This document shows positions 3,272 to 20,643 of a stretch of DNA of 20,735 bases, piece by piece; positions within the stretch are counted from its first letter, which is position 1, and each line of letters starts with the position of its first letter. Made by a program: the position numbers and the translations under genes. Below the pieces are notes generated by a model. The model saw nothing but the letters and a program-made list of their open reading frames with translations, ran no database searches and was not told where the DNA came from. The DNA is from a virus. Where the stretch lies: IMG/VR virus record IMGVR_UViG_3300042350_003734, positions 1 to 20,735 of that record. One strand, written 5' to 3'.

Positions 3272-3279
3272 GTGATCTC

Positions 3280-5229: not shown

Positions 5230-6675
5230 TTAGACCCAACCGGCAGCTACCGGGTGGTTGTGTACTGTTTTTGAGCGAATAGGGTTCATCTCGGACCTCA
5301 TCTGGAGACACCCGTACTGAAGGGCGTCGTGTATGTGTGAAAACTTGTCCTTCACCGGACGGTCTTTGAACCGCGCAGAGCCAGAGACTCGAAGTCGCTC
5401 GTAGCGGTAGCCGCCGTTGAACCCTTTCCTCAGCATCTTGCAAGAGGGGTCTAGGACAAACCCAGGCTCTCCGCCGGACATCCGCTGCAGGAAGTAAGCA
5501 ACGGACTCGCGTCGAGCCACAAATTCATTGGTCGGAGCAGGCTCACAAAGGATGCCAAGCTCCATCAGTTCCTGCATGCAGGTCTTCTCATCGGTCTGGC
5601 TGCGCATGTTCCCAGCGGGGTCGCCAACAGCCTCGACGCGATGCTTCGAGTACTCGCCTCTGATCACCGGGCGGACAACCTCGGAGTAGAACTGCCGGAT
5701 GCCCATGTCCTCGGAGACCAACTCCTTGAGGACCAACAGCTGTCCGCGACTGTTCATCTGCAGGAAAGCGCAGGCTGGGGTCAGACCAAAGTCAAACGAC
5801 AGCAAGATTGGCATCCCTTGGATCGGCGTGATCGCCATCTCCGACAGATGCACTCTTTCGTTCCACTCCGGATAGACAGGCTTGCCATCCATCGTGGTGC
5901 CGTACTGCCCCAGCAGGAACACCCTGATCCAGTCTTCGGTCTTGCCGTACAGCTGGTTCAGGTAGTACTGATACCCGAGGCTGTGGTTCTGGATGTTCTC
6001 AGCCTGCGGGTTCGGCACGTACTGTTGGTACGTGGGCGACTTGGGGTCCATGTCCTGGATCAAGCCACCTGGCTGCTTGAAGAACCGGAAGATTTCCGGG
6101 CGCTCTTCTTCAGCCAGCTTGTACCACCAGGAGTCATCGTCAGGCGGGTTGGTGTCCATGATCACACCAGTCCAGCTGGGACCGCCGTTGCGCTTGGAGG
6201 GGAAGCGACCGACACGCTGAGTCAGCATGTCCAGAACCGCCTTCTCCATCTCGCTGGCTTCGTTCATCCAGCCGCCGGTCAACTCCAAGGACCTCAGCTT
6301 GCCGACATCATCAGGGCGATCCAACGCCATGAAGATGACCTCAAGCTCAAGTCCCGTTCCATCCCCGATGTCGGAGATGTTGATGTTCGACGTGATGGGC
6401 GTGTCCCACTTCATCGTCGCCAAGTCCTGATACCAGTCCATCCACGTCTTGATCGTGGTCGACTTCAGTTCAGGGTATGTGTTTCTGCAGATCGCCCAGC
6501 GTGATCGCCTCACGCCATCAGGTCCAGGCATTTGCTCCAAGGCTCGGGACAGGACCTCGAAGCAGCATGCGGTCGACTTGCCTGATCCGACAGGACCCAT
6601 CAGACCGCGCACGAACGAGTTGTCTTGATGGAAGGCTTCAGTTATCGGACCAGGGGCTTGGTAGTTGACGTTCAT
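5230..6675 (-). CDS. Terminase large subunit
   Basis: 481 aa two-domain DNA-packaging motor. The ATPase domain has Walker A GPVGSGKS at 27-34 and a Walker B-like LTGGWMNEASE with Glu139. A motif III-like V-I-M-D-T-N-P-P-D-D follows at 171-180. The RNase H-like nuclease domain has the expected acidic residues: Asp295 in LLSFDFG, Asp352 in AVGDPAGNMRS and Asp450 in HIHDALQYG. The start has AAAGGT upstream. The first 38 nt overlap the end of a small upstream frame, suggesting coupled translation. It sits before the portal gene as expected. Unusually, the small subunit is about 2.7 kb upstream, separated by the lysis genes. Confidence 0.93.
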   Translation of the reverse strand: MNVNYQAPGPITEAFHQDNSFVRGLMGPVGSGKSTACCFEVLSRALEQMPGPDGVRRSRWAICRNTYPELKSTTIKTWMDWYQDLATMKWDTPITSNINISDIGDGTGLELEVIFMALDRPDDVGKLRSLELTGGWMNEASEMEKAVLDMLTQRVGRFPSKRNGGPSWTGVIMDTNPPDDDSWWYKLAEEERPEIFRFFKQPGGLIQDMDPKSPTYQQYVPNPQAENIQNHSLGYQYYLNQLYGKTEDWIRVFLLGQYGTTMDGKPVYPEWNERVHLSEMAITPIQGMPILLSFDFGLTPACAFLQMNSRGQLLVLKELVSEDMGIRQFYSEVVRPVIRGEYSKHRVEAVGDPAGNMRSQTDEKTCMQELMELGILCEPAPTNEFVARRESVAYFLQRMSGGEPGFVLDPSCKMLRKGFNGGYRYERLRVSGSARFKDRPVKDKFSHIHDALQYGCLQMRSEMNPIRSKTVHNHPVAAGWV

Positions 6676-6913
6676 CAGGTGGTATTACCTTTGGCGGTTT
6701 TCGTTTGATCCGCTCAAGTTGTTGTGCAGCCCGCATCTGAGCGCAGGCTTGAGTGATCCACTCGAAGATGTTCCCGTCGGTCTTGGGGTCGTAGACCGGG
6801 TGCTTCGGGGTTACATCAACTGGACCTCGGCGGACCTGCGTTTCACCAGACCGGGGAGAACCTTCCCGCCGCCACGAGTCCAGAGCATCAGCTGTTCCTT
6901 CGCCCCTTCCCAA
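6638..6913 (-). CDS. Small coding segment between lysozyme and large terminase, start unclear
   Basis: After the lysozyme stop, a different frame reads VDVTPKHPVYDPKTDGNIFE and ends inside the terminase start region. Its codons carry a strongly GC-rich third position in this stretch, as real genes here do, so it looks translated. No ATG or GTG lies at the expected place. The nearest in-frame candidate is a TTG at 6913-6911 inside lysozyme, which lacks a well-spaced ribosome site, and an ATG lies at 7033. About 60 residues downstream of 6823 look genuine. The left coordinate is firm and the right one is a guess. The function is not recognised. Confidence 0.42.
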   Translation of the reverse strand: MGRGEGTADALDSWRREGSPRSGETQVRRGPVDVTPKHPVYDPKTDGNIFEWITQACAQMRAAQQLERIKRKPPKVIPPDERQLPSPWSDN

Positions 6914-7260
6914 TCCTTTGCGATGATCTTTCGCTTCAGGGTGGACGTCTGCAGCCTCCCGACGCCCAGGTTGTAGGCGAAGTCCACTATCGCTGCCAGA
7001 CGACCCGGCTTTTCTTGCAGCAGATTTGGGCATTGACGGAGGACTCCAGGAAGGTATGTGTGATTCAGTTCGAACAGCAACAGCTGTTCAGCGCGCTCCT
7101 TGCTCATTGGCGGGTGCGTGAGTTCGACCTTGTTGCCGTTCTCGTAGTACGTGCTGCCGTACCCGATGGTTGCGACACCAGCTGGGCACAAGTACGGCTT
7201 TGACCGGAACCCCTCAAACAACTTGCAGAGGTCGGCAGCGATTTGCACTGCCTCCTGCAT
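6811..7260 (-). CDS. Endolysin, T4-type lysozyme (GH24)
   Basis: 149 aa, the normal length for GH24 lysozymes, which cleave the MurNAc-GlcNAc bond of peptidoglycan at lysis. The active-site segment is L-F-E-G-F-R-S-K-P-Y-L-C-P-A-G-V-A-T-I-G-Y-G. Glu16 is the catalytic acid, Thr31 fits the conserved threonine, and the usual aspartate is Cys25. The 9- and 6-residue spacings equal Glu11, Asp20 and Thr26 of T4 lysozyme. Further family signatures are FAYNLGVGRLQTSTL (about 93-107) and LPGLVKRR near the end. No signal peptide or SAR helix is visible, so holin-dependent export is expected. The ATG overlaps the holin stop as TGATG and has GAGGAC upstream. Confidence 0.92.
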   Translation of the reverse strand: MQEAVQIAADLCKLFEGFRSKPYLCPAGVATIGYGSTYYENGNKVELTHPPMSKERAEQLLLFELNHTYLPGVLRQCPNLLQEKPGRLAAIVDFAYNLGVGRLQTSTLKRKIIAKDWEGAKEQLMLWTRGGGKVLPGLVKRRSAEVQLM

Positions 7261-9047: not shown

Positions 9048-9342
9048 CCAACTCCTCCAATTTCTGTGCGCTTTAAGGCTGATATGCACAAAATTTTGCG
9101 AAAAACGAACATGTACCCCTCTCCAGGGGGGCGTCTTGGTCCGCATGGGGGTGCCAAAGTTATCGTCAGGCGATAAACCGGCTAACTTCGCTACAAAAAG
9201 GCGCCCAGTGCGTGTGGGGATGGGTATGTGGTGGGTCCCAACCCCGCCGCCTCGCGCGCTCGCGGGTCCGCGTGGGGGTGCCCGCGACTCCGCGCACGAC
9301 AACGCGCGCGTTTACGCCCTGTCCGACAGCTGTTGCCGCTGT
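9048..9342. other. Non-coding stretch between small terminase and the next gene
   Basis: No convincing gene is seen on either strand in these 295 bases. Visible elements are a self-complementary CAAAATTTTG (9089-9098), a CCCCT/AGGGG hairpin (9116-9129), and a perfect TTATCG/CGATAA inverted repeat around TCAGG (9160-9176). A very GC-rich, CG-repeat-rich part spans 9238-9312. One ACAGCTGT copy lies at 9326 just inside the region. Its place beside the terminase small-subunit gene makes a packaging-start or cohesive-end site possible, though nothing proves this. Confidence 0.4.
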
Positions 9343-10020
9343 TCAGCCTGGGAGCAGAGGACCGGACTCAGTGCCCGGTCGACTCCCCAGCACTGGCGCG
9401 GGGTTGCAGTCGATTGTGGGCGGCTGACTGTGGGTAGAGCGGATGCCAATGTTGAAGATGACGTTCGTCTTGGCGGTGTCGCCCTGGTAATCGCCCCACT
9501 TCGTCGGCTTGAGCTTGCTGGCAACCCACTTGCGGGCGTCCACGCGCAGCCGTGCTGCCTGGATTTCCTCCATGCTGCCAGTGGCGGCTTCGTCGGCGAT
9601 GTCGACGATCTCATCAGCCAGGGAATCGGCGCGGTCGTCGTGTGCGCGCGCGTACCGCTCCCGGAAGTCCTTCCTTTCCCGTAACCACCGATAGACAGTG
9701 TCGAGCCCTCGATGCTCCAGTCTGCAGTAGCTGCGCAGTGATCTCCCCTCTGCGATCCAGGCGCAGATGCGATCTGCCTCTTCGTCTGTGTATTCGCTTG
9801 GTCTGCCCATGACAGCTGTTTGGGTGCTGTTTTCTTCCCCTACGCTTTGCACAGCTGTTGCCTGCTGTTGTGCCAGCTGTAGCTGCTCATGGGCGTTTTT
9901 CTCAGCCAGGGCGACTTCCTGCAGCGCCTGATCCCTTGCTGCGTCCTTTTGCTGGCGCTTCTTCTCTGCTGCCCTTTTCCTGGCAGCTTCGCGCTCTTGG
10001 CGTTCTTGCTCTTCGTTCAT
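9343..10020 (-). CDS. Terminase small subunit (Sf6-type)
   Basis: 225 aa from the ATG at 10020, which overlaps the upstream stop as ATGA. The C-terminal two thirds hold the small-terminase domain: GRPSEYTDEEADRICAWIAE, then S-L-R-S-Y-C with a helix-turn-helix-like D-T-V-Y-R-W-L. After that come R-E-R-Y-A-R-A-H-D-D-R-A-D, E-I-V-D-I-A-D-E and A-R-L-R-V-D-A-R-K-W-x-A-S-K-L-K-P-T-K-W-G-D. These signatures match the Shigella phage Sf6 gp1 family, which binds the packaging site and feeds DNA to the large subunit. The first about 70 residues are an extra Gln/Glu/Ala/Lys-rich coiled coil, absent from typical members that begin near MGRPSEY. An internal start at that methionine is possible. Confidence 0.88.
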   Translation of the reverse strand: MNEEQERQEREAARKRAAEKKRQQKDAARDQALQEVALAEKNAHEQLQLAQQQATAVQSVGEENSTQTAVMGRPSEYTDEEADRICAWIAEGRSLRSYCRLEHRGLDTVYRWLRERKDFRERYARAHDDRADSLADEIVDIADEAATGSMEEIQAARLRVDARKWVASKLKPTKWGDYQGDTAKTNVIFNIGIRSTHSQPPTIDCNPAPVLGSRPGTESGPLLPG

Positions 10021-10250
10021 CGGTATCTCGCGGTCTTGGCGGCGATCTTCTGGGGCTGGGCGACGAACTGCTTGCCCTTGGCTTTCCCTTCCCTCTTCGC
10101 CTTTGTCGTCGCGGCGTACTCGGCGGGCGTCAATGCTTTGATCGCCTTCTCTGGCAGGTAGCGCTCGCCCGTCTGGCTGCTTGGCTTGCCGGACTTGGTG
10201 CGCCACTTCTGCTCTGTCCAGTCCTTCAGGCTCTTCTGGGGCGCTTTCAC
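10017..10250 (-). CDS. Small basic conserved protein (DUF5872-like, 77 aa)
   Basis: Starts at a GTG (10250) that overlaps the upstream stop as GTGA. The sequence begins MKAPQKSLKDWTEQKWRTKS and continues G-E-R-Y-L-P-E-K-A-I-K-A-L-T-P-A-E-Y-A-A-T-T-x-A-K-R, then a lysine-rich end (KGKQFVAQPQKIAAKT). The K-S-L-K-x-W-T-x-Q-K-W-R-T-K-S-G-K-P and Y-L-P-E-K-A-I-K-A-L signatures match a family widespread in phages and algal viruses, which I recall as DUF5872. The function is unknown. High positive charge suggests nucleic-acid binding. It is the gene just upstream of small terminase. Confidence 0.8.
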   Translation of the reverse strand: MKAPQKSLKDWTEQKWRTKSGKPSSQTGERYLPEKAIKALTPAEYAATTKAKREGKAKGKQFVAQPQKIAAKTARYR

Positions 10251-10423
10251 TTGTAGCCCCCGCCCTTTTCCTTGTACTGCTTTGCCAGCAGTTGCGCCTT
10301 GCGGGCGCTCCACTGCCCTGCGGCGGTCCCCTGAACAGCCTGCGCCTTGATCTTGTTGAACAGCTGTTTGCGCATCTCGGGCTTGGTGTAGTTCCCGGCG
10401 GCGTTCACGGTCGACTTCTTCAC
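10247..10423 (-). CDS. Small basic protein with a KKSTVNAAGNYTKP start (58 aa)
   Basis: A 58-aa frame too short for most ORF filters. It begins at a GTG (10423-10421), reads KKSTVNAAGNYTKPEMRKQL, then G-Q-W-S-A-R-K-A-Q-L-L-A-K-Q-Y-K, and ends GGGYK. The same motifs recur in small basic proteins next to the KSLKDWT family in many phages, which supports a true gene. Its start overlaps the stop of a 25-codon frame and its stop overlaps the next GTG, so the cluster is translationally coupled. The function is unknown. One ACAGCTGT palindrome lies within it at 10360. Confidence 0.72.
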   Translation of the reverse strand: MKKSTVNAAGNYTKPEMRKQLFNKIKAQAVQGTAAGQWSARKAQLLAKQYKEKGGGYK

Positions 10424-10497
10424 GGCTTGATCTTCGCTGCCAGCGCCTCAAGGGCTGCTGCAATGGACGCGCGGATGATCGTCAGCCAGCCCTTCAC
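10420..10497 (-). CDS. Mini-ORF, 25-aa amphipathic peptide
   Basis: A GTG (10497-10495) three bases after the preceding stop opens a frame reading MKGWLTIIRASIAAALEALA before ending KIKP. Its stop overlaps the next GTG as GTGA. The peptide would form one amphipathic or weakly membrane-seeking helix. The exact stop-start coupling on both sides supports translation. It may only serve to carry ribosomes to the next gene. Confidence 0.4.
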   Translation of the reverse strand: MKGWLTIIRASIAAALEALAAKIKP

Positions 10498-10500
10498 GGG

Positions 10501-10641
10501 TTAGCCGCCCTTCATGCACTTGCCAGCCTTGGCGCAGGCAGCGGCGTTCTTGCAGCCAGAGCAGGGCTTGAACTTGCCAATGGGACCGCCCTTTGCGTAC
10601 CCCTTGACGGCTTTCACTGGGACCTTCACTGCTTTCTTCAT
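10501..10641 (-). CDS. Small Cys-rich basic protein, first gene of the late block (46 aa)
   Basis: AAGGAG lies 7 nt before the ATG at 10641. The protein reads MKKAVKVPVKAVKGYAKGGP, then a cysteine cluster C-S-G-C-x5-C-x5-C with lysines between (about 27-43), and ends KGG. The C-x2-C-x5-C-x5-C arrangement could bind zinc or another metal, and the lysine-rich rest could bind nucleic acid. I know of similar G-x-x-x-K-C-x-x-C small proteins in phages but not their role. It is the first gene after the divergent control region. Confidence 0.65.
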   Translation of the reverse strand: MKKAVKVPVKAVKGYAKGGPIGKFKPCSGCKNAAACAKAGKCMKGG

Positions 10642-10700
10642 GGTTTCACTCCTTGTTTCACTCTTGATGTTGCAAAGAAACAACTGTTCGACATCTGTTG

Positions 10701-10716
10701 AATACCGTTTGGTATT
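10701..10716. promoter_or_regulatory. Inverted repeat, probable operator
   Basis: AATACC-GTTT-GGTATT is a perfect 6-bp inverted repeat with a 4-base spacer. Its right end overlaps the first two bases of the TTGACA box of the plus-strand promoter. A further AATACCG half lies at 10727-10733 inside the promoter spacer. Placement over a promoter in a divergent region suits a repressor or activator site. The binding protein is unknown. Confidence 0.55.
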
Positions 10717-10743
10717 GACATGCAGCAATACCGAACGATAAGA
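10715..10743 (+). promoter_or_regulatory. Sigma-70-like promoter for the plus-strand operon
   Basis: TTGACA at 10715-10720 is a perfect -35 box. A candidate -10 box GATAAG (10737-10742) follows after 16 bases, and ATAAGA after 17 bases is the alternative. Transcription would start near 10750 and run through about 300 nt of leader to the first gene at 11048. The AT-rich patch stands out in GC-rich surroundings. Confidence 0.65.
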
Positions 10744-11047
10744 TTCGGGTGTCGGTGATGTTCTTTGTGTCTGTTGTCCCCGCCACCGACGCGACTGGGG
10801 ACTGGGTTCCAGGCGACCGAGCAATGTCCTGGTGGGCGAGAGTCGGTTTGGTCCCGGCAAGACGCCAGAGACGGTGAGCTAACCCGACCGTAAAGAGCGC
10901 TCGACCAGCCCGCCGGAAATCCCACCGTCCCAGCCGATCTTCTGACCCGGCTGCAACAGGGTTTCAGACCTTGCCCACCGTGGTGGGTAAGTGCGGACGC
11001 CCTGTCCTACCGAGCGTTGGCGGTTCCCAGCGCATGAAAGGCTCTCA
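10744..11047 (+). ncRNA. Structured leader or non-coding RNA candidate
   Basis: Three hundred bases without a plausible gene, GC-rich and full of inverted repeats. CCAGG 10809-10813 pairs with CCTGG 10828-10832. GTCGGTT 10842-10848 pairs with AACCCGAC 10881-10888 with one bulge. The next pairs are ACGGT 10871-10875 with ACCGT 10887-10891 (alternative to the former) and CAGCCG 10931-10936 with CGGCTG 10948-10953. CTTGCCCACC 10970-10979 pairs with GGTGGGTAAG 10982-10991, and a GGAC/GTCC hairpin follows near 10995-11007. The mutually exclusive pairings near 10871-10891 would suit a switch. I do not recognise a known RNA class, and no tRNA fold is evident. It may be a leader controlling the operon. 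Confidence 0.45.
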
Positions 11048-11146
11048 ATGCTTTCCTTCCTGCTGGTTCTGATGTCCGTCTTCACGGCTCTGGTGCTGTT
11101 CAGCGCCGCTGCAGCCGCCCTCTGCCCCTCTTACGTCAAGGAGTGA
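11048..11146 (+). CDS. Short membrane peptide, first gene of the plus operon (32 aa)
   Basis: ATG at 11048 preceded by AAAGG. The peptide begins MLSFLLVLMSVFTALVLFSA and ends CPSYVKE, so it is almost entirely one hydrophobic helix with a short polar C-terminus. Its stop lies within the GAGTGA that also serves as the ribosome site of the next gene. No family is recognisable at this length. A membrane anchor or regulatory leader peptide are both possible. Confidence 0.5.
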   Translation: MLSFLLVLMSVFTALVLFSAAAAALCPSYVKE

Positions 11147-11148
11147 AC

Positions 11149-11499
11149 ATGACCACTGCAATCGACCTGTCCGGCTTCTACGGGACCGACAACTACTACC
11201 GCCACCCCTTCACCCGCTCGGTCTACACCGACGGCGTCAAGTACTTCGCCGAGCAGGCGGGTGCCTACTGGTTCCTGGACATCGTCCTGACCGAGTGGGA
11301 CGCCCTGGTGCGCCGCGAGGGGTTCCTGACCATTGACCTGAAGGTCAGCCGCAACAGCGCGGTGATCGAGGTCTCGGACGGCAACGGCTCTTACACCAAG
11401 CCGCGTCTGGTGGACTTCACCGACTGCCCGGACGGTGACTACCGCTTCTTCTTCGTCGCAGGCGAGCCCTGCGTTCTCATGCTTGCCTCGGAGTACTGA
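11149..11499 (+). CDS. DUF6876-like phage protein (116 aa)
   Basis: The ATG at 11149 is chosen over the GTG at 11143 because AAGGAG lies at the right distance. The protein contains F-Y-G-T-D-N-Y-Y-R-H-P-F, then Y-T-D-G-V-K-Y-F-A-E-Q-A-G-A-Y-W-F-L-D. Further on are W-D-A-L-V-R-R-E-G-F-L-T-I-D-L and V-D-F-T-D-C-P-D-G-D-Y, and it ends L-M-L-A-S-E-Y. This G-T-x-N-Y-Y-R-H and Y-T-D-G-V-K-x-x-A-E-x-A-G-A-Y-W-x-L-D pattern matches DUF6876, found in phages, plasmids and accessory regions. Its biochemical role is not established. It is cytosolic by sequence. Confidence 0.85.
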   Translation: MTTAIDLSGFYGTDNYYRHPFTRSVYTDGVKYFAEQAGAYWFLDIVLTEWDALVRREGFLTIDLKVSRNSAVIEVSDGNGSYTKPRLVDFTDCPDGDYRFFFVAGEPCVLMLASEY

Positions 11500-11501
11500 C
11501 C

Positions 11502-11720
11502 ATGAAAATCATCATCGCCATCAAGACTGTGTACGGCAACCAGTCGATCTACCCCGTGTGCGACAACGCCAAGCTGTTCGCCGAAATTGCCGGGACCAAG
11601 ACGCTCACCAAGCAGGCGATCCAAAAGATCATGGCGCTTGGCGTCACGGTTGAACTGGACAAGACGCCTTCCCTTGAGGAGGCGCTGGGCATGTTCACTG
11701 GTCAGGGGGCGCTCGCATGA
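11502..11720 (+). CDS. Conserved small phage protein (72 aa)
   Basis: 72 aa beginning MKIIIAIKTVYGNQSIYPVC, followed by A-K-L-F-A-E-I-A-G-T-K-T-L-T-K and an I-M-A-L-G-V-T-V-E segment. This start, with T-V-Y-G-N-x-x-I-Y-P-V-C and A-G-T-K-T-L-T, recurs in small proteins next to DUF6876-type genes in phages and mobile elements. The compact alpha/beta layout has no catalytic motif that I can see. It lies 2 nt after the DUF6876-like gene and overlaps the next as ATGA. Confidence 0.78.
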   Translation: MKIIIAIKTVYGNQSIYPVCDNAKLFAEIAGTKTLTKQAIQKIMALGVTVELDKTPSLEEALGMFTGQGALA

Positions 11721-11869
11721 ACGCCGCCCAGTCAATCACCCGCATTTTGCGTCGCCGCGAACAATACCGTTTGCTGCGTTTCATTGCTGAACAGCTGTTT
11801 ACGGCTGTCCAGTTCGTTCTCGCCGCAGCGCTGATCTACGCGCTGCTGGTTCTTGGTCTCGCCCTTTGA
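11717..11869 (+). CDS. Single-TM small protein (50 aa)
   Basis: Starts at an ATG overlapping the previous stop as ATGA. The N-terminal half is basic (MNAAQSITRILRRREQYRLL) and the C-terminal half is one membrane helix (AVQFVLAAALIYALLVLGLAL). The positive-inside rule puts the N-terminus in the cytoplasm. It lies 12 nt before the AAA+ ATPase start, so it could tether part of that machinery to the membrane, but no direct evidence shows this. It contains one ACAGCTGT (11791-11798). Confidence 0.6.
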   Translation: MNAAQSITRILRRREQYRLLRFIAEQLFTAVQFVLAAALIYALLVLGLAL

Positions 11870-11881
11870 TTGGAGGTCATC

Positions 11882-13127: not shown

Positions 13128-15224
13128 ATGGCAAATCAAATCATTGGCGCTCGCGTCAAAGCTGCAGCGCTTGTCCACGCCCAGAAGCAACTGGGCAACC
13201 TGGGCTTCCGGTTCAAGTCCGGCGCTGGCTCCGCAACCTTCCACGGCGAGACTGCCTACGCCGCCTGGGAGGCTGGCGCTGGCGACTGGGTTGGCGCTTT
13301 CCGCATCAACTACCCAGAGATGCCCGACAACGCCCTGGTCAGCCGCCGCGAGGCGGACCTGATCAGCGCTTACACGCTGCATGAGATCGGGCACGTCGCC
13401 TACACCGAGGCGAAGGTCACCAGCGGCAAAGCTGCGCTTGTCCACTACCTGTACAACGGGATCGAGGACGGGCGCATCGAGCATGCGGTCATTGCCAGCG
13501 GCAAGGCTCGCGGTGCGCGGTCGATGTTCAAACGCCTGATGTCGAAGTTCACCAGCAAGATCGTTGCTGGCGGCGACTTCAACCCGGCGTCAATCAACAG
13601 CGCCCCCTTCGCCCTGGCTCTGGTCTCACGCGCCGCCCTGGGCGATGGCAACGGGTTCGCGAAACAGCTGTTGTCTCGCATCCCGGAGCCGTACCAGTCG
13701 CTCTACGCAGCCGTTGCGGATGGCATCAAGTCTGCCCCGCTCGACCGCTCTGGCTCTGCCGTCTCGCTCAGTCTGGCTCAGCAGTTCCTGGACGGCTGGC
13801 TGCGCATCAACCCGGACGCCCTCAACCGCCCAGCCGCTCCCCCTCCCCTGGGTGAGCCCCAGGATGGCGAAGGCATCTCGATGCCGGGTGGCGAGGGCGA
13901 TCAGGACGGCGACCCCGCTGAGGGTGCCCTGCCTGACCAGCAGGAGGAGGAACAGCTGTCCGACAGAGACGGTCCCAGCGGTCACTGGTCGCCGCCTGAT
14001 CGCGACCTTTTCGACGCCGACAACCACGGCGACGGATTCGATGACAGCGATGAACAGCTGTCTCCCGAGGAGCAAGCCGCAGCCGAGGCTGACGCCAAGG
14101 AGCGCGACGAACTTGCGGAGCAGATGGCTGGCGCTGCCGAGGCGGCACCAGAGGCTGACGACAGCATTCTCAGCGCCCTGCCGGAGTCCGACTCGGACGA
14201 CGACGAAGGCGGTGACAGTGTTGGCGAGCCGTTCCAAGCTCTGGATCAGCCGGACCACTTCGATGAGGGCAAGGTCATCAAGCCCGAGCCCGAGGTCGAC
14301 GATGTCTTCAAGTCGATTCGCGAACGCACCCGCGATGCGGTCACGCTCCGGTCTGTCCCGGTTGCCAACCGCAGCGAGATGCGCAAGTGGAGCAAGCTGC
14401 AGGACTTGACCGACAAGACCCGCAAGTCGCACCTCAAGAAGCTCAACCGCCACGCGATGCCTGCTCTCAAGGCTCAGCTGTACCGGGTCCTCAAGGCTCC
14501 GGAGCGCTGCGGCTGGGACGGCGGCGCGATGGGTGGTCGCTTCGACGGCAAGCGCGCACCGCGCATGCTGGCTGGCAGCGAACAGGTCTTCAAGCGCCGC
14601 TGGCTTGCCGAGGGCATCGACACCGCCGTGTCGGTTGTCATCGACCTGTCCGGCTCGATGCAGGGCAGCACCATCGACTCTGCAGTCGACCTTGCCTGGA
14701 CTATTGCCCAGGCTTGCGAAGGCGCTCGCGCTGACGTCGAGGTTGTCGGGTTCCAGAACGCAAGGTATCCGGTCTACACGGGCGGCTACGACATGCGCGG
14801 CGATTGGCACTCGGCTCAAGGCAGCAGCGACTGCACCTTGGTGGTCGCCAAGCGGTTCGCTGACCGCTGCGAGTCGGTCGCCCACCACTTCCAGGTGTTG
14901 AAGCGACTGCCTGACCTGGGCACCCCTGACTATGAGGCATGCAAGACGGTTGTCGAACAGCTGTCCGAGATGCCGCACAAGCGCAAGGTTGTGATCATGG
15001 TCACCGACGGCTGCGGAGACGTTGCCGACATGCACCGCCTGGGCGAGGGAGCCTGGAAGCTGTACGGCGTAGACGTGATTGGCTTTGGCATCCACGTCGG
15101 CGCTCAGCAGTTCGCTCGCGCCTACCCGGTCGGCTCTCCGGTCAGCCTGGACTCGCTCCACAAGACGGGTCTCAAGGGCGTCGTCAAGCAGCTGGAGTCG
15201 CGCGATCAGCGCCGCGTCATCTAA
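13128..15224 (+). CDS. CobT-like VWA protein with N-terminal HEIGH motif
   Basis: 698 aa, GGAGGTCAAC before the ATG. Three parts are visible. (1) Residues 1-230 contain L-H-E-I-G-H (HEIGH at 85-89), then 110-118 N-G-I-E-D-G-R-I-E. HExxH with a downstream glutamate is the zinc-site plan of gluzincin peptidases, and the E-D-x-R-x-E stretch is also seen in CobT-type proteins. (2) Residues about 240-390 are a long acidic linker rich in Asp, Glu, Gly and Pro. (3) Residues about 490-690 form a VWA domain with MIDAS residues Asp506-x-Ser508-x-Ser510, Thr599 and Asp627. The AAA+ gene directly upstream is the expected partner. Whether the HEIGH site is catalytic is unknown. Confidence 0.86.
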   Translation: MANQIIGARVKAAALVHAQKQLGNLGFRFKSGAGSATFHGETAYAAWEAGAGDWVGAFRINYPEMPDNALVSRREADLISAYTLHEIGHVAYTEAKVTSGKAALVHYLYNGIEDGRIEHAVIASGKARGARSMFKRLMSKFTSKIVAGGDFNPASINSAPFALALVSRAALGDGNGFAKQLLSRIPEPYQSLYAAVADGIKSAPLDRSGSAVSLSLAQQFLDGWLRINPDALNRPAAPPPLGEPQDGEGISMPGGEGDQDGDPAEGALPDQQEEEQLSDRDGPSGHWSPPDRDLFDADNHGDGFDDSDEQLSPEEQAAAEADAKERDELAEQMAGAAEAAPEADDSILSALPESDSDDDEGGDSVGEPFQALDQPDHFDEGKVIKPEPEVDDVFKSIRERTRDAVTLRSVPVANRSEMRKWSKLQDLTDKTRKSHLKKLNRHAMPALKAQLYRVLKAPERCGWDGGAMGGRFDGKRAPRMLAGSEQVFKRRWLAEGIDTAVSVVIDLSGSMQGSTIDSAVDLAWTIAQACEGARADVEVVGFQNARYPVYTGGYDMRGDWHSAQGSSDCTLVVAKRFADRCESVAHHFQVLKRLPDLGTPDYEACKTVVEQLSEMPHKRKVVIMVTDGCGDVADMHRLGEGAWKLYGVDVIGFGIHVGAQQFARAYPVGSPVSLDSLHKTGLKGVVKQLESRDQRRVI

Positions 15225-15228
15225 CCCT

Positions 15229-15244
15229 GGGGGCTCGCGCCCCC
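15229..15244 (+). terminator. GC hairpin after the VWA gene
   Basis: A perfect GGGGGC (15229-15234) and GCCCCC (15239-15244) stem closes a TCGC loop 4 nt after the VWA stop. It is followed by TTCAACAACTG, not a T-tract, so it is at most a weak terminator. It may instead be an mRNA-processing hairpin that lowers expression of the two genes downstream. Confidence 0.4.
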
Positions 15245-15274
15245 TTCAACAACTGTTCAACAAGGAGCAACAGC

Positions 15275-15523
15275 ATGAGCATTCAGTCATTCAATGACCC
15301 AGCCGTTCAAGTCGACCTATCTCGCGACTCCGACCTGGAGTCACTTCGATTCATCCACGATGAGCGCGGGGGTCCCAGGTCAGCCTACGCATGGGCAATC
15401 GGTCGCACCCCGAATCAAAGAGGGATGAACTTCCTCACAGCCGACCTGGACACCCAGAAGGTGGAGGACTTCATCATCGCCTTCTACACCGCATACAACG
15501 CCCGCTTTGGGCGCACCTATTGA
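15275..15523 (+). CDS. Hypothetical protein (82 aa)
   Basis: ATG at 15275 with AAGGAG 8 nt before it. The protein begins MSIQSFNDPAVQVDLSRDSD and has S-L-R-F-I-H-D-E-R and A-Y-A-W-A-I-G-R-T-P-N. It ends with an aromatic helix, D-F-I-I-A-F-Y-T-A-Y-N-A-R-F-G-R-T-Y. No known family is recognised. It lies between the VWA protein and the HD hydrolase, 9 nt before the latter, so it belongs to the same transcript. There are no membrane segments or metal motifs. Confidence 0.7.
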   Translation: MSIQSFNDPAVQVDLSRDSDLESLRFIHDERGGPRSAYAWAIGRTPNQRGMNFLTADLDTQKVEDFIIAFYTAYNARFGRTY

Positions 15524-15532
15524 GGAGCCAGC

Positions 15533-16033
15533 ATGAAGATCGATGAACTTGCCCTGGTCATTGCCGAGCGCGCTCACCGCGAGGCTGTCAGGGCTGACGG
15601 CGTCACGCCGTACATTGCCCACCCGATGGTGGTTGCCGCTGTTGTCCGCGCTGCAGGTGGAAACGAAACAGCTGTCGCTGCAGCCCTGCTGCATGACGTG
15701 ATCGAGGACACCCCGACCAAGCCTTCGGAACTCATCGAGCTTGTCGGCGAGGAGGTCGCAGACCTTGTGGTCGAGTTGACCTTCCCAGCCAACATGCCCG
15801 ACCGCAGGCGGCGGATGATCGAGAGAGTCCCCTCGATGAGCCCAGCGGCTAGGCTGATCAAGCTTGCCGACATTTACTGCAACCTCTCGGACCTGCCCAG
15901 GGCAGGGTGGGAGGCAGACAAGGTGGCTCGGTATTACCGGCACCTGCTGGCTATGCGTGTGGCTTTGGCTGGAACCCACCCCGTGCTTGAACGGGCGTTC
16001 GACGATGTCGCCGAGAAGTTCCCTGTCGCGTAG
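15533..16033 (+). CDS. HD-domain alarmone (ppGpp) hydrolase-like protein
   Basis: 166 aa, the size of single-domain small alarmone hydrolases. Motifs fit the SpoT/MESH1 hydrolase fold: P-Y-I-A-H-P (His30), L-L-H-D-V-I-E-D-T (His54-Asp55 and Glu58-Asp59) and I-K-L-A-D-I-Y-C-N-L (Asp113 and Asn117). The HD site binds Mn2+ and removes the 3' pyrophosphate from (p)ppGpp or related alarmones. No synthetase or regulatory domain is attached. A phage enzyme could lower host alarmone levels during infection or neutralise toxic alarmone synthetases. Start: GAGGAGCCAGC before the ATG. It is the last gene of the plus operon, followed by a terminator 110 nt later. Confidence 0.82.
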   Translation: MKIDELALVIAERAHREAVRADGVTPYIAHPMVVAAVVRAAGGNETAVAAALLHDVIEDTPTKPSELIELVGEEVADLVVELTFPANMPDRRRRMIERVPSMSPAARLIKLADIYCNLSDLPRAGWEADKVARYYRHLLAMRVALAGTHPVLERAFDDVAEKFPVA

Positions 16034-16142
16034 TCCTGCTTGATATTGCCCTCGGGGAATTTCCTGGGGGCTGTTTCACTATGAGCAGGACCTACGGAAT
16101 TGGATTTGTTGGATAGTCCTTCTGCCGATTATGCACATTTAC

Positions 16143-16188
16143 AACCCCCGGCGCAACAGCTGTTATGGCTGTTGCTCTGGGGGTTTTT
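16143..16188 (+). terminator. Strong terminator at the end of the plus operon
   Basis: AACCCCC (16143-16149) pairs with GGGGGTT (16179-16185), and inside it CAACAGC (16154-16160) pairs with GCTGTTG (16168-16174). A TTTTT tract closes it on the plus strand. The minus strand has only a weak T-tract (TTGT), but the facing minus-strand gene also ends within the hairpin, so it may serve both directions. One ACAGCTGT copy forms part of the inner stem. The 109 bases before it (16034-16142) hold no gene. Confidence 0.85.
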
Positions 16189-16672
16189 CTGTATCTACGT
16201 TTGCAGGTATCCGGAGCAATTGCGCCCTGCCTGCAGCAATCTCGCTTTCAACGAAGGCGACCATATCCTCCATCTGTTTCACGGTGCTGTTGTCCAGCTG
16301 TTCGTCGTGAACAGCGAGCGCTGTTGCGATGGCGTTCATCTCAGCACCGCTGCACCCATATCGCTTGTGCTTGGCGGCTCTCTCAACCATCGCCTCGACT
16401 GCAAGCTGAGCTTGTCTGATCTCGGGCATGAACTCAGTGCCGAGACCGTGACGCGCATAGGCTTCAGAGATGTTGAAGCAGGCAATGAGTATGTCGACCT
16501 CATGCTTGCCCGCTCTGCCCTTCTTGATTGAATCAAGCGCTGCGTAGTGCTTGATCTTCAGAACCGTAAGCGCGTCGCTGAACTGGTGCGCGATAGGCTG
16601 CACCCCCTGGATCACTCTCTCCCAGGCGTTCAGTGTGATGGGCTTCGGTCTGTACTTGCTTCGCTTGCGCAC
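16163..16672 (-). CDS. Conserved phage protein of unknown function (169 aa)
   Basis: Starts at a GTG overlapping the previous stop as TAGTG. The protein begins MRKRSKYRPKPITLNAWERV, then has H-x-A-L-D-S-I-K-K-G-R-A and D-I-L-I-A-C-F-N-I-S-E-A-Y. A central region holds F-M-P-E-I-R-x-A-Q, and near the C-terminus A-T-A-L-A-V-H-D-E-Q-L-D. The R-K-R-S-K-Y-R-P-K start and A-L-x-V-H-D-x-Q-L-D motif recur in unnamed proteins of phages of Burkholderiales and Xanthomonadales. The basic N-terminus suggests nucleic-acid binding. Its stop lies inside the shared terminator hairpin. It is the last gene of the right-hand block. Confidence 0.78.
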   Translation of the reverse strand: MRKRSKYRPKPITLNAWERVIQGVQPIAHQFSDALTVLKIKHYAALDSIKKGRAGKHEVDILIACFNISEAYARHGLGTEFMPEIRQAQLAVEAMVERAAKHKRYGCSGAEMNAIATALAVHDEQLDNSTVKQMEDMVAFVESEIAAGRAQLLRIPANVDTEKPPEQQP

Positions 16673-17238
16673 TACTCCAGCAACTCCAACAGCTGTTGAG
16701 TTACCTTGCGGCGCGCGGCAGCGTATGCATCATCCGCAATCTCTTTTGCGAACTCGATGCGCTTCTCCCACCAGTCCTTTGATTCATCGGGTCCAAGCTT
16801 CATCATCTGCACCCGCCACTTCCATGTCGGCATGAATAGACCCGTTCCGTTGCAGTGCCAACAGCTGTCCGACGCCTTGCGCTTTGGCACGTTGAACTTG
16901 TTGGGTGGCGCGTAGCTGTTGAGCTTCGTCCCGGTCCCATTGCATGCCTTGCAAATTCGGATCATCCATTCAAGCAAAGCCTGCTGCGCGATGATGGCTG
17001 CTCGATCCTGACCAATGCCGATCCTCTTCCTTCGACCGGCGCGGATCAATGTGTTCGACAGCAGTTCGATGCTGTTCTGTAGTTCGCTGTTGTGACCTGC
17101 TGAGCGAAGGGCTTGCAACGTAGAGCCAAGCCGTGAGGCGAACGCAAGCGCGGCAACGATCTCGATGTCGTGATGTAGCTCGTCAGCCTTGAGGTTGCCG
17201 CTGTTGAGCGCTGAACCTATGCGCTCATGCGTCGCCAT
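16672..17238 (-). CDS. Putative zinc protein resembling Q-type antiterminators
   Basis: 188 aa from the ATG at 17238, chosen because AGGGGG lies before it. A GTG six bases earlier is the alternative. Two C-x-x-C-x-G-T-G knuckles occur at Cys96/Cys99 (RICKACNGTG) and Cys126/Cys129 (CWHCNGTG), about 27 residues apart, as in DnaJ-type zinc folds. Phage late antiterminators of the Q82 kind carry comparable C-x-x-C-x-G-x-G knuckles near the end of the early block, next to nin-region nucleases. A YbcO-type nuclease and a PD-(D/E)XK nuclease lie just upstream here, which fits. The antiterminator role is inference. It overlaps the nuclease gene by 14 nt. Confidence 0.6.
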   Translation of the reverse strand: MATHERIGSALNSGNLKADELHHDIEIVAALAFASRLGSTLQALRSAGHNSELQNSIELLSNTLIRAGRRKRIGIGQDRAAIIAQQALLEWMIRICKACNGTGTKLNSYAPPNKFNVPKRKASDSCWHCNGTGLFMPTWKWRVQMMKLGPDESKDWWEKRIEFAKEIADDAYAAARRKVTQQLLELLE

Positions 17239-17566
17239 CCGCACCCCCTACGATGCGGTCGCGCATCATGTGGACGAACTGGTCGAGCCTCAACATCACA
17301 AGCGGTCGCGTGTCCCCATCAACCCTCATCACCACCACTGGTATCTCGGTTGCCACGGACCCAGCCTCGCACTGCCGCATGAAATTGATCACTGACAGCT
17401 GTTTGCGTCGTTTCACTTCGATCCGGAACGGCGGCACGTTGATGTCCTCTCCGCTGTCCCTTGCCTGTCCCAGTTTTCTTTTCACCGCTACCCCCAACTG
17501 GTCGCTGAGGTACGTTGCGATCTCCCTTTCCGTCGAGGCTCCTCGGTCTCGCTGTAGTTTGCCCAT
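17225..17566 (-). CDS. PD-(D/E)XK-type nuclease, possible Holliday-junction resolvase
   Basis: 113 aa from the ATG at 17566, with GGAAGAG before it. It opens MGKLQRDRGASTEREIATYL, with Glu13/Glu15 in the first helix. A basic strand (VAVKRKLGQARDSG) leads to Asp41 in G-E-D-I, and Glu50-Val-Lys52 completes a PD-(D/E)XK signature. Size and layout match small archaeal-type or phage resolvase-like enzymes that cut branched DNA, needed to resolve replication intermediates before packaging. A restriction-like role is possible. In the overlap with the zinc-ribbon frame, this frame has the higher GC at third codon positions. Confidence 0.75.
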   Translation of the reverse strand: MGKLQRDRGASTEREIATYLSDQLGVAVKRKLGQARDSGEDINVPPFRIEVKRRKQLSVINFMRQCEAGSVATEIPVVVMRVDGDTRPLVMLRLDQFVHMMRDRIVGGADGDA

Positions 17567-17711
17567 CACTCTTCCTTTTCTTCTGATAACAGCTGTTGCA
17601 CACCCGTGTTCGCCTGCCAACGACGGAGACGTAGGTGAGCTTTGATCCTTGGGTTGGCGACGGCTTCCCGCACATCGCGCACGTAAACCTCTGCAGGTAC
17701 GGTGAGTTCAT
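17319..17711 (-). CDS. Zinc-ribbon protein whose tail overprints the nuclease gene
   Basis: ATG at 17711 overlaps the upstream stop as ATGA. Residues 1-50 read MNSPYLQRFTCAMCGKPSPT and then V-C-N-S-C-Y-Q-K-K-R-K. This gives two C-x-x-C knuckles (CAMC and CNSC) about 24 residues apart, a zinc-ribbon arrangement. Third-position GC is about 71 percent for these codons, like neighbours. From about residue 50 on, the frame runs 248 nt into the nuclease gene and turns low-complexity and basic, as an out-of-frame shadow would. An alternative frame starting at a GTG near 17718 and ending exactly as TGATG at 17566 gives a tidy 50-aa protein (MFDELTVPAEVYVRDVREAV), but its third-position GC is lower (about 56 percent). 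I favour the zinc frame for the first part. Confidence 0.5.
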   Translation of the reverse strand: MNSPYLQRFTCAMCGKPSPTQGSKLTYVSVVGRRTRVCNSCYQKKRKSDGQTTARPRSLDGKGDRNVPQRPVGGSGEKKTGTGKGQRRGHQRAAVPDRSETTQTAVSDQFHAAVRGWVRGNRDTSGGDEG

Positions 17712-18007
17712 CGAACACTGAGCCTCCCGTCTTCAATGAGCCACGCGATGGTGTCTCGGTGGGCTTCTTCCCAGGCACGGCGCTTCTCTTCCAGGCTCCA
17801 GTGCTTGCCCTGGTCGATCTCCATGTGGCACTTGTTGCAGACCGCAGCGACTCGGTAGTCGTGAGCCTTGATGCCCTTGCCCTTGCCGTCTCTTAGCTGG
17901 TTGCTGTGAGCGGGGACGATGTTGGTCCCGTCGCCGTGGCACCTGCAGACAAAGCAGAACGGCGCGTCGTGCAAGTGATCAAGAAGCTTGCGGCTGCGCC
18001 AGTTCAT
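17708..18007 (-). CDS. YbcO-type (DUF1364) HNH-like nuclease
   Basis: 99 aa, ATGA overlaps at both ends. The protein has C-F-V-C-R-C (Cys18, Cys21), then P-A-H-S-N-Q-L-R-D-G-K-G-K-G-I-K-A-H-D-Y, A-V-C-N-K-C-H (Cys57, Cys60, His61) and E-I-D-Q-G, with a C-terminal E-K-R-R-A-W-E-E-A-H-R-x-T. The A-H-S-N x G-K-G-x-G-x-K-A-H-D and C-x-x-C-H motifs are the signature of YbcO/DUF1364 nucleases found in the nin region of lambda-like phages. They bind zinc and degrade or nick DNA. Neighbouring nuclease genes support a recombination role. Confidence 0.85.
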   Translation of the reverse strand: MNWRSRKLLDHLHDAPFCFVCRCHGDGTNIVPAHSNQLRDGKGKGIKAHDYRVAAVCNKCHMEIDQGKHWSLEEKRRAWEEAHRDTIAWLIEDGRLSVR

Positions 18008-18459
18008 AGGCTTGGGGAAACCGCAGCGCGGTGAGCGTTGAACGGAGCGAGGATCAGACGCCTGAACCCATCTGCAGCAGCCGGGTTACTGTCGAGCAGC
18101 GACCGACTGCCGATGCCAAGCATCGAGCAGATGTAGTTGCGAGCAGATGGCTCGTCGCAGATTGAGTCGAAGCTCCTGGCGCTTGCCCAGTTGTAGAACT
18201 CTGGGTCTCGGCAAAGCAGGAACGCCTGTTGCGACAGCGTCTTCGGATGTTCAACAGCCTGTTCGTCGTCGCCGATCTGAACAAGCACCGCCATGAACCT
18301 CTGCCCCGCTCGCTTACCCTGGCGGATGGTGAAGTCTCTGAACGGGTGGGCTTCGCCCTCGTCGTCAAGCAAGAAGGTCACTGTCCTGCCGCGAGTGGAT
18401 GACTCCGCCCACTGCAGCAGCATGACCTCGCCTTGGAATGCAATCTTTTCTGCGTCCAC
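18004..18459 (-). CDS. Conserved phage protein upstream of the YbcO nuclease (151 aa)
   Basis: Starts at a GTG three bases after the previous stop, with AAGGAGTGAGGA providing the ribosome site. It reads MDAEKIAFQGEVMLLQWAES, then R-T-V-T-F-L-L-D-D-E-G-E-A-H-P-F-R-D-F and G-K-R-A-G-Q-R-F-M-A-V-L-V-Q-I-G-D-D-E. A helical C-terminus follows with L-S-Q-Q-A-F-L-L-C-R-D-P-E-F and a S-R-S-L-L-D-x-N-P-A-A-A motif. I know related phage proteins with the F-R-D-F and G-Q-R-F-M-A-V-L signatures in recombination regions, but not their activity. It does not show the NinB pattern that often occupies this place. Confidence 0.75.
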   Translation of the reverse strand: MDAEKIAFQGEVMLLQWAESSTRGRTVTFLLDDEGEAHPFRDFTIRQGKRAGQRFMAVLVQIGDDEQAVEHPKTLSQQAFLLCRDPEFYNWASARSFDSICDEPSARNYICSMLGIGSRSLLDSNPAAADGFRRLILAPFNAHRAAVSPSL

Positions 18460-18462
18460 TCC

Positions 18463-18771
18463 TCACTCCTTGTAGCGCATCAGTTGCCGGTACTTCTCGG
18501 CTTTGGTTGTTGGGCGCTTCGACTTAACAGCTGTTCGCTGTTTTTGCTTAGCGTTCGGTATTGTTTCTGGGCGATCTTTTGGAAGCACGGGCACACCAGG
18601 AGGGCTCGGCTCGCCCCACTCGTTTCCGTCAACGTTCAAGTACGTGATCTTGCTTCCTGGGAACTGGTCCATCAGCGAGCGGATGTCTTTGAACAGCTGG
18701 TCAACATGGGGCTTTTCTTTGCGGACCGCAGCGAAGTATTCTTTGTCCGCCTGCGTGAACTTCACACTCAT
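18463..18771 (-). CDS. Hypothetical protein (102 aa)
   Basis: ATG at 18771 overlaps the upstream stop as ATGA. It begins MSVKFTQADKEYFAAVRKEK, with a helical start, a middle S-K-I-T-Y-L-N-V-D-G-N-E-W-G-E-P, a Pro-rich linker and a strongly basic C-terminus (KQKQRTAVKSKRPTTKAEKYRQ begins near residue 75). The basic tail suggests nucleic-acid binding. No family is recognised. A 17-base motif (18547-18563) also seen in the plus-operon promoter lies within this gene. Confidence 0.65.
   Translation of the reverse strand: MSVKFTQADKEYFAAVRKEKPHVDQLFKDIRSLMDQFPGSKITYLNVDGNEWGEPSPPGVPVLPKDRPETIPNAKQKQRTAVKSKRPTTKAEKYRQLMRYKE
18547..18563 (-). repeat. Second copy of a 17-base motif from the plus-operon promoter
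   Basis: The minus strand reads CAATACCGAACGCTAAG here. The promoter region has CAATACCGAACGATAAG at 10726-10742, a 16 of 17 match. It lies inside the 102-aa gene with no TTGACA box nearby, so a second promoter is unlikely and an operator is possible. One such pair in 20 kb could arise by chance. Confidence 0.3.
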
Positions 18772-19358
18772 GCGTTCCGCTCCTTCAGCTTTGCATCGAC
18801 CATGTAAACCAACGCTTGCCAGTTTGTTCTATCGCCGAACGTCGCTCGATTAACTAAAGCACGCGCTTCGTCGTCCGTCAGTTCGACCCATTGGCGCGGT
18901 GCGGCGTAGAGCGGTTGCCAATACTTTCCAATCATGTCTTCGCTGGGATCGGTAGTGAAATGCGTCTTGTATTTCTCTTCATGGAACCAAGCCACCGGCT
19001 TCGCCTTCTGCCGCGCACAGACCAGACAACCATCACCGGGGATCAATGCCTTCCAGCCGCACTCCTTGCACAGTTCGAGTGAGGTCTGGTTGTACTGCTC
19101 GATGGCTGCTCTGGCTGCAGCCACCACACCATCAGGCGCCAGCGTTTGCCAGCCGAGCATGTCTTCCAGCGCCTCCAGAAGTTTCGCGTTGATGGCTTCA
19201 GCTTTGACTGCTCGCTGTAGATAGTCCGACGCCCACCGACCCTCGCTTTCGGCGAGTTCGTGCAGGCGGCGAAGCTCGGCGGCGGCTTCGGCGTACAAGC
19301 TGGTCGGCAGGGCGGCAGATTGCTCGCATTCATCAGCCAGCTTCAGTGTGTCGTTCAT
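18768..19358 (-). CDS. Hypothetical protein with a zinc-like C-x2-C pair (196 aa)
   Basis: ATG at 19358. The N-terminal half is helical and Glu/Ala-rich (about 1-90). A C-K-E-C-G-W-K-A-L-I-P-G-D-G-C-L-V-C stretch near 96-113 could bind zinc. The C-terminal half reads K-P-V-A-W-F-H, then Y-W-Q-P-L-Y-A-A-P-R-Q-W-V-E-L-T-D-D-E-A. The A-W-x-x-x and P-L-Y-A-A-P-x-x-W-x-x-L-T-x-x-E pattern is a common C-terminal module of small phage early proteins with unknown role. It is embedded in the minus-strand early block, with overlapping ends on both sides. Confidence 0.7.
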   Translation of the reverse strand: MNDTLKLADECEQSAALPTSLYAEAAAELRRLHELAESEGRWASDYLQRAVKAEAINAKLLEALEDMLGWQTLAPDGVVAAARAAIEQYNQTSLELCKECGWKALIPGDGCLVCARQKAKPVAWFHEEKYKTHFTTDPSEDMIGKYWQPLYAAPRQWVELTDDEARALVNRATFGDRTNWQALVYMVDAKLKERNA

Positions 19359-19627
19359 TGTCGCGCCTCCGGGTTAGCAGCCACCAATCCAACTACGTGG
19401 CATGAGTGGTGAAGCGATGTCTCTCTCGACTCGCCTCGTTTGAGAACAACGTGCTTGGTGCCGCTCGGCGTGACGTGTTCGCGCCTGATGAACTCGTACA
19501 CCTCGCCTGTCCGCAGCAGCGTGAACAGCTGTCCTGGTTGCATGTTCCTGACCTTCTTGCGAGCAGGGCACCTGCGCCCCTGGTAGCAGTTGCCGTGGCA
19601 TGGAGGACAGGTCTGCTCGACGCTCAC
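19355..19627 (-). CDS. Small Cys-rich N-terminal protein (90 aa)
   Basis: Starts at a GTG overlapping the helicase stop as GTGA. The first 25 residues carry a cysteine cluster (MSVEQTCPPCHGNCYQGRRC) followed by P-A-R-K-K. C-x-x-C and N-C-Y-Q-G-R-x-C-P-A-R are repeated themes in small phage proteins. The rest is a compact beta-type domain (Q-L-F-T-L-L-R-T-G-E-V-Y-E-F-I-R-R) with S-G-T-K-H-V-V-L-K-R-G. The function is unknown. It is co-transcribed with the helicase. Confidence 0.68.
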   Translation of the reverse strand: MSVEQTCPPCHGNCYQGRRCPARKKVRNMQPGQLFTLLRTGEVYEFIRREHVTPSGTKHVVLKRGESRETSLHHSCHVVGLVAANPEARQ

Positions 19628-20643
19628 GACAGCTGTTCCTCGACCAGGATTCCTGTTTCCTTCGCGACCAGACCTGGCGGAACGTATCTCGGGACCTCGA
19701 ATCCGTGCGGTCTGCCCTGAACCTGACGCTCATGGAAGCTGTTGCCTTCGTTGTGATACCAGAGCCGCACAGTTGCCTCCTCGCCGCCGTCTCTGTTCTT
19801 GACGACGATGACCTGGGCATCACTCCATGCCTTCGCGTCATCGAGCAAAGGCTTGCCGTCCTTCATGCGCCGCTCGTTCTCAGCCTTCGCGCCCTCCTCC
19901 TTGACCACGCGCTCCTTCATCTTGTTGCGGTAGACCAGGACGACGTTGTCAACGCGGTCAGTGATGGCGCCAGTACCCTTGATGTCGTACTTGCCTGGAA
20001 TCTTTTCCTCAGACTCAAGCTTGCGAATGTGGTGGACAACGTGAATGTGAATCTCATGCGCCCTCGCCATCTCGCAGAGCTTGAAGACGAAGTCCTTCTG
20101 GCTGTTGTAGTCGTCTTCTCCCGAGACGCAGCACATAAGGTTGTCGATGAAGAAGTGGTGGCACTTGTTCTCAAGCGCGGCGTACTTGACGATGCCCTGC
20201 ACGTCAGACATCGAGGCGGTGCCCCTGACGTCCGCGTACCAGAGCTTGTCTGTTGCCCAGTGGATGAAGTCCTTCGCGTACTGGGGTGAGGGCAAGCCCC
20301 CAGCAGCCTGAAGAATCATGCGGCTGTTCAGTGCTTCGGGCAGCATCTCGAAAGACGCAACGCCGCAGCGGTATCCCTGCTGCATGAAGCCAAGCTCAAC
20401 CTGACTGATGATCAGTGACTTGCCGTGCCCGTTGGCACCAGCCCAGAGGGTAACCTCTCCAGGCTTGAACTGCAGATTCAGGTTGCCCCAAGGCAGTTTG
20501 GCAAAGACGGTCGAGTTATCTCCATACATCCGCTGCAGCGTCTCTTCCACGAAGTCGGATGGCTTGCGCATCGTGTGCGCCTTGCTCTCCTGCTGCTTGA
20601 GGTAGGCACCGAAATCGAATGAGTCCGGGACCGTCTTAAACAT
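19624..20643 (-). CDS. Replicative helicase, DnaB-type ATPase domain
   Basis: 339 aa from the ATG at 20643, with GAGAG before it. A GTG at 20655 would add four residues. It has a short N-terminus (about 1-50) and then a RecA-like core: Walker A GANGHGKS (69-76), the catalytic glutamate in S-F-E-M (Glu99), and Walker B-type H-H-F-F-I-D-N (Asp167). A late H-V-V-H-H-I-R-K motif follows, and then D-I-K-G-T-G-A-I-T-D-R-V-D-N-V-V-L-V-Y-R, with Arg239 as a candidate finger. This matches the C-terminal helicase domain of DnaB, Twinkle and T7 gp4. The N-terminal primase or DnaG-binding domain is missing, so a separate primase is expected to the right of the window. Confidence 0.87.
   Translation of the reverse strand: MFKTVPDSFDFGAYLKQQESKAHTMRKPSDFVEETLQRMYGDNSTVFAKLPWGNLNLQFKPGEVTLWAGANGHGKSLIISQVELGFMQQGYRCGVASFEMLPEALNSRMILQAAGGLPSPQYAKDFIHWATDKLWYADVRGTASMSDVQGIVKYAALENKCHHFFIDNLMCCVSGEDDYNSQKDFVFKLCEMARAHEIHIHVVHHIRKLESEEKIPGKYDIKGTGAITDRVDNVVLVYRNKMKERVVKEEGAKAENERRMKDGKPLLDDAKAWSDAQVIVVKNRDGGEEATVRLWYHNEGNSFHERQVQGRPHGFEVPRYVPPGLVAKETGILVEEQLS

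Follow-up and report, generated by a model that had tools for sequence, protein, structure and literature searches.

Why a single 8-bp palindrome, ACAGCTGT, should recur again and again in one stretch of viral DNA is the question raised by IMG/VR record IMGVR_UViG_3300042350_003734, whose positions 1 to 20,735 (20,735 bases, ~20.7 kb) were analysed here as a whole and are called the window. The 20 exact copies listed in an initial annotation made from the sequence were all recovered, 18 of them within 9326-19636. A Markov model of order 3 predicted 0.58 copies rather than about 20 (0.44 and 0.61 at orders 1 and 2). When synonymous codons were shuffled in all genes, 1.0 coding copies were expected against 17 observed, with a maximum of 4 in 300 shuffles, which bears out the annotation's dismissal of codon preference as the cause. 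The same shuffle in three further contigs gave 39 copies observed versus 2.4 expected, 15 versus 0.8 and 12 versus 0.8. The annotation had put the number of CAGCTG sites at about 40, and we counted 41, seven of them before position 5736. CAGCTG without the motif flanks was near its expectation under the synonymous shuffle of the window (21 vs 18.9), so only the flanked form is enriched. The coding copies were also said to occur in different reading frames. All three frames do occur, but unevenly: 12 copies read xxA-CAG-CTG-Txx, four read ACA-GCT-GTx and only one lies in the third frame.

The word recurred in related contigs of uncultured phages, which are podovirus-like and 45-60 kb long. There were 43 copies in G001 (58.5 kb), 35 in G005, 22 in G006, 16 in L009, 26 in G787 and 36 in the distant G019. 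ACAGCTGT was the top over-represented 8-mer in five related contigs, and it ranked first among 8-mers in nearly every motif-bearing contig that was ranked. About 70 other capsid relatives held only 0-1 copies each. The enrichment is real and strong, and it is restricted to a single branch of this phage group. A literature search for the word returned only papers on animal gene regulation or medicine, with no report of it in a phage. Of the 19 window sites that were aligned with G001, 18 were identical there, compared with 75% of other 8-mers (P = 0.03). In G006 and L009, which share about 70% nucleotide identity with the window, most aligned sites differed while the density persisted, indicating that the density of sites, more than their position, is maintained.

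We then counted encodable positions, that is, places where a protein could encode the word through synonymous codons. The window used the word at 17 of 24 such positions, compared with 39 of 55 (71%) in G001 and 33 of 47 in G019. In G001, where 198 palindromic 8-mers were compared, the next-best used 19% of its encodable positions and the median was 0; motif-free relatives used none of their 14-27. The positions themselves were about two to three times denser in motif-bearing than in motif-free genomes (0.69-1.08/kb vs 0.27-0.47/kb). Because the unused remainder was close to the motif-free baseline, the word appears to have shaped the amino-acid sequence too. A specific 8-bp word filling 40-71% of encodable positions, together with an excess of such positions, points to strong pressure on the phage DNA beyond that on its proteins. 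Head genes held 0-1 encodable positions, and this scarcity can explain the copy-free left part of the window. The annotation was right that the structural genes before 5736 lack copies, but protein constraint can explain this, and the concentration of 18 copies in the right half arises, at least in part, because conserved head proteins are unable to encode the word. We therefore rejected head-gene depletion as a functional signal, since encodability accounts for it. Gln-Leu and Thr-Ala-Val contexts predominate in the coding copies, as an artefact of codon usage, amino-acid content or composition might produce, but such an artefact is already refuted by the synonymous shuffles, by the encodable-position counts against all palindromes and by motif-free relatives with the same kinds of genes; we give it next to no weight.

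The element has an internal structure. In G001, G006 and L009, the base preceding the palindrome was mostly A or G, and no copy had a T there, so the site is better written RACAGCTGTY. Its half-sites, RACAG and CTGTY, were in phase with the helix, at intervals of about 11 bp. When these three genomes were pooled, half-sites in the same orientation were in excess over the synonymous shuffle at spacings of 10-13 bp (56 vs 13.3) and 20-24 bp (39 vs 12.5), as were converging pairs at 14-18 bp (43 vs 11.9) and diverging pairs at 6 bp (23 vs 3.6). Codon structure does not account for the 10-13 bp peak, because its spacings were not confined to multiples of three. Half-sites of G787 showed the same phasing tendency, and motif-free relatives had no comparable spacing peaks. 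In the window, 10 of the 20 palindromes sit in clusters of three or more half-sites (Table 1).

Sister phages that avoid CAGCTG retained the element in a different spelling, the non-palindromic ACAACTGT. This variant was enriched in G777 (13 vs 1.8 expected), in the L315 group (8-11 vs 1.0) and in G791, the full contig of L337 (26 vs 2.9), where AACAACTGTT occurred 17 times against 0.37 expected and CAGCTG was absent against 20.9 expected. Its orientation relative to genes in G791 was 13:10, with no strand bias among the 23 sites counted in this contig. A search with the phrog_19763 protein, discussed below, added contigs carrying ACAGCTGT (L328, L332, L334) or ACAACTGT (L337, L338, L343, L347-L350); L340 had neither in its 8.9 kb. 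The classification of G777 as motif-free was rejected, as it is enriched for ACAACTGT; its contig begins at the replication gene, and the missing CI and g8 genes there are uninformative. Many palindromes were avoided across the phage group, CAGCTG included. Avoidance of many palindromic 6-mers (GCCGGC, CGGCCG, CAGCTG and others) was strong in G777-G781, G009 and G791, and the CAGCTG count was 0 in G009, G780, G781 and G791. Motif-bearing genomes did not avoid this PvuII site, whereas the sisters did. The simplest account of these sequences is that where CAGCTG was costly, one centre base changed and the element survived. Its survival in re-spelled form therefore favours a binding site whose outer bases are fixed and whose centre can vary, and speaks against a methylation target or an RNA-level signal. 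The natural change to ACAACTGT also provides a ready comparison of binding specificity with restriction pressure.

Taken together, we consider, with a probability of about 0.68, that this phage group uses a dimeric DNA-binding protein that recognises dispersed sites at the DNA level, and that ACAGCTGT is the strongest version of such a site. Among the roles that the initial annotation offered, a protein-binding site is the one that best fits the phased half-sites, the use of both orientations and the re-spelling. Protein binding, restriction as the cause of the re-spelling, and a role in the phage are the three things that we infer from these patterns. Each RACAG would be a half-site, and two facing half-sites would form RACAGCTGTY. 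Extra half-sites at a distance of about 11 bp would share the same helical face and may allow further subunits to bind cooperatively. Selection would hold the density of sites but not fixed positions, with sites being lost and regained wherever the encoded protein tolerates it. In the CAGCTG-avoiding sisters the centre may have been altered to AACAACTGTT while the outer bases and the density were retained. The role would most likely be to organise or regulate the whole phage genome, through roadblocks or nucleoid-like coverage. A bolder version, in which a phage-encoded architectural protein coats its own genome via helically phased half-sites, selected even at amino-acid cost, and relatives evaded a restriction enzyme through a one-base change that preserved binding, is a tentative idea that we regard as rather doubtful.

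The best-known comparison is HIP1 (GCGATCGC) of cyanobacteria (PMC4390886). ACAGCTGT resembles it in being an octameric palindrome, the most over-represented octamer, mostly intragenic and present at about one copy per kb. Single mismatches within the core showed little or no enrichment, and one-base deviations that keep CAGCTG were in excess (ACAGCTGG, 22 vs 10.7; ACAGCTGC, 22 vs 13.4), an end-base bias also seen in HIP1 (PMC4390886). A word of this kind could accumulate if CAGCTG were the target of a methyltransferase or of methyl-directed repair, with no dedicated binding protein. However, G791, G777 and the L315 group hold the element as a non-palindromic variant and avoid CAGCTG, the half-sites are helically phased, and a scan of part of the G001 proteins turned up no methyltransferase. 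Moreover, HIP1 is a feature of cellular genomes, and the word here was enriched in phage genomes but not in the sampled bacterial ones. We consider this origin unlikely. The modification or protection site proposed in the annotation fits poorly for a similar reason, as the sister phages retain the element yet eliminate CAGCTG.

Bacterial genomes bear on two further proposals. In about 770 proteobacterial genomes (369 at the class level and 399 at the phylum level), and in 30 with an exact tRNA-Asp end, ACAGCTGT never exceeded 0.039/kb, compared with 0.37-1.07/kb in the phages, although this sample may not include the actual host. Equal enrichment across the host genome, which the annotation had named as a possible objection, thus had no counterpart in the sampled bacteria, and host-wide enrichment was rejected. 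The phages could still have come to resemble the chromosome of a host outside the sample, which covers only part of the many proteobacterial species. Given that all sampled genomes were low, including the 30 with the exact 43-bp tRNA-Asp end, we find this very improbable. An uptake sequence (DUS/USS) is a word enriched in a bacterial genome; none of those sampled was enriched, leaving the uptake-like signal suggested in the annotation unsupported.

We also compared the element with the stoperators of Cluster A mycobacteriophages (PMC6550527, PMC9283540). These sites are asymmetric, 13 bp long and predominantly oriented one way, and the immunity repressor binds them. Tens of copies of a short site dispersed across a phage genome, with a motif that drifts between relatives, are common to both, and the present phages encode a CI-like S24 repressor and an integrase. 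A CI binder was first backed by co-occurrence and by a prediction borne out in one contig, L296/G787, which was retrieved solely through its CI and carried the motif too. Yet the sites here are symmetric, or unbiased in strand where asymmetric, and mostly intragenic, and they differ from the CI operator. That operator, assigned from its position beside the CI gene, is CAATACC-N4-GGTATTG; it lies upstream of the Cro-like gene and over the -35 box of an SSB-like gene or operon in G001, G006, L009 and G787. In addition, CI is missing between g8 and g10 in the L315 group, which nevertheless carries ACAACTGT. For these reasons CI was rejected as the binder, and we hold stoperator-like sites of the immunity repressor to be just as improbable as a host signature. 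The CI-type palindrome flanks CI in the same four contigs, and GAATACCGTTTGGTATTGACA, at about 10701-10720 of the window, is a copy whose first base differs, over a possible -35 box. The idea that every relative has its own dispersed palindrome was also dropped, as the remaining top-ranked palindromes were either weak or CI-type operators in clusters.

The protein that would occupy the dispersed sites is more likely to be encoded by the phage than by the host. Two candidates are a YdaS/Cro-like protein near CI (g8, outside the window) and the phrog_19763 protein (g3, inside it). The g8 model matched YdaS (Foldseek probability 1.00, E 0.02), and its predicted fold and its divergent arrangement from CI recall YdaS/Cro-like regulators of lambdoid prophages (PDB 8co2, 8c7k), although g8 is only a candidate binder of ACAGCTGT. 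Wherever the immunity region of a motif-bearing contig was examined, g8 was present. All motif-bearing contigs searched for g3 had it, G777 included, and it was absent from five motif-free relatives (G778-G781 and G009). A fold search with g3 gave no match, with a model of low confidence in its N-terminal half. With so few named candidates, the question is directly testable.

Several observations weigh against the binding-site interpretation or its candidates. G790 (L341) has homologues of both g8 and g3 yet no dispersed motif, and g3 homologues also occur in the Burkholderia phages BcepIL02, DC1 and JC1, which show no motif enrichment. The presence of neither protein is therefore sufficient, and g3 was rejected as the sole determinant. 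Autoregulation by g8 would predict a RACAG half-site between CI and g8, but G001, G006 and L009 had none in this intergenic region. The half-sites of G019 were hardly phased. Finally, the phasing test pooled related genomes and used a half-site definition chosen after the motif had been seen, and the strand comparison came from a single contig.

Table 1. Palindrome sites, half-site clusters and a candidate binding protein in the window.
Feature	Position	Strand	Remark
ACAGCTGT site, TerL gene	5736..5743		third half-site follows, cluster 5735-5754; conserved in G001
ACAGCTGT site, endolysin-like gene	7080..7087		cluster 7073-7088; conserved in G001
ACAGCTGT site, intergenic	9326..9333		cluster of four half-sites, 9319-9343
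ACAGCTGT site, TerS gene	9812..9819		cluster 9811-9831
ACAGCTGT site, TerS gene	9851..9858		exact match
ACAGCTGT site	10360..10367		retained in G005
ACAGCTGT site, small called open reading frame 11717-11869	11791..11798		cluster 11790-11809
ACAGCTGT site, CobT-like gene	13664..13671		exact match
ACAGCTGT site, CobT-like gene	13952..13959		cluster 13951-13966; site interrupted by a gap in G001
ACAGCTGT site, CobT-like gene	14054..14061		cluster 14043-14062
ACAGCTGT site, CobT-like gene	14957..14964		also present at the aligned position of L009
ACAGCTGT site, HD hydrolase gene	15668..15675		exact match
ACAGCTGT site between convergent genes	16156..16163		cluster 16155-16173
Five-half-site cluster without full palindrome	16274..16325		half-site scan
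ACAGCTGT site	16689..16696		exact match
ACAGCTGT site	16861..16868		unchanged in the alignments with G006 and L009
Three-half-site cluster without full palindrome	17057..17091		half-site scan
ACAGCTGT site, RusA-like gene	17395..17402		exact match
ACAGCTGT site, intergenic by the gene calls used	17589..17596		exact match
Candidate binder, 151-residue protein of phrog_19763 (g3)	18004..18459	-	presence/absence across contigs
ACAGCTGT site	18527..18534		cluster 18526-18542
ACAGCTGT site	19525..19532		104 bp to the next site; equally spaced pair at the helicase gene end in G006
ACAGCTGT site, 3' end of helicase gene	19629..19636		exact match

Other repeats were seen in the contigs surveyed. Between the Cro-like g8 and the replication (initiator) gene of L341 (G790), positions 6873-6957 hold seven tandem 12-bp repeats, (A/G)ACAGATARCTG, with RACAG in helical phase; these may be origin iterons or an operator array. 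Their likeness to iterons does not extend to the window and its close relatives, where the sites are dispersed with no tandem array. In the unrelated contig L142, 15 copies of ACAGCTGT at 2780-3447 lie at multiples of 30 bp and form a tandem repeat, not dispersed sites. L256, a distant capsid relative, has five copies of an unrelated palindrome, GTCATGAC, within a TTA-GTCATGAC-TAA context.

The capsid, portal, terminase and DnaB-like helicase of the window place it in a podovirus-like group, whose closest cultured relatives by portal are Rhizobium phages (36%) and HMO-2011-type phages (26-29%). Near-complete relatives encode a tyrosine integrase, the CI-like S24 repressor and the divergent YdaS/Cro-like protein. 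An attP-like sequence that corresponds to a tRNA-Asp 3' end adjoins the integrase gene in G001 (L039, about 10818-10864) and G006 (about 29390-29432), and its 43-bp core, in either of two spellings, was found exactly in 40 of 399 Pseudomonadota genomes. The phages therefore appear to be temperate and probably infect proteobacteria. Scanning genomes with the capsid protein revealed no close prophage, the best match having 49% identity. Elsewhere in the window, a CobS/MoxR-like ATPase gene is followed by one for a CobT/VWA-like protein (11870-15224), a pair conserved in G787, L009, G777 and L315. The HD hydrolase at 15533-16033 resembles the N-terminal part of SpoT/RelA (NCBIfam spoT_relA, E 6e-21, under the family cut-off) and is possibly a small alarmone hydrolase.

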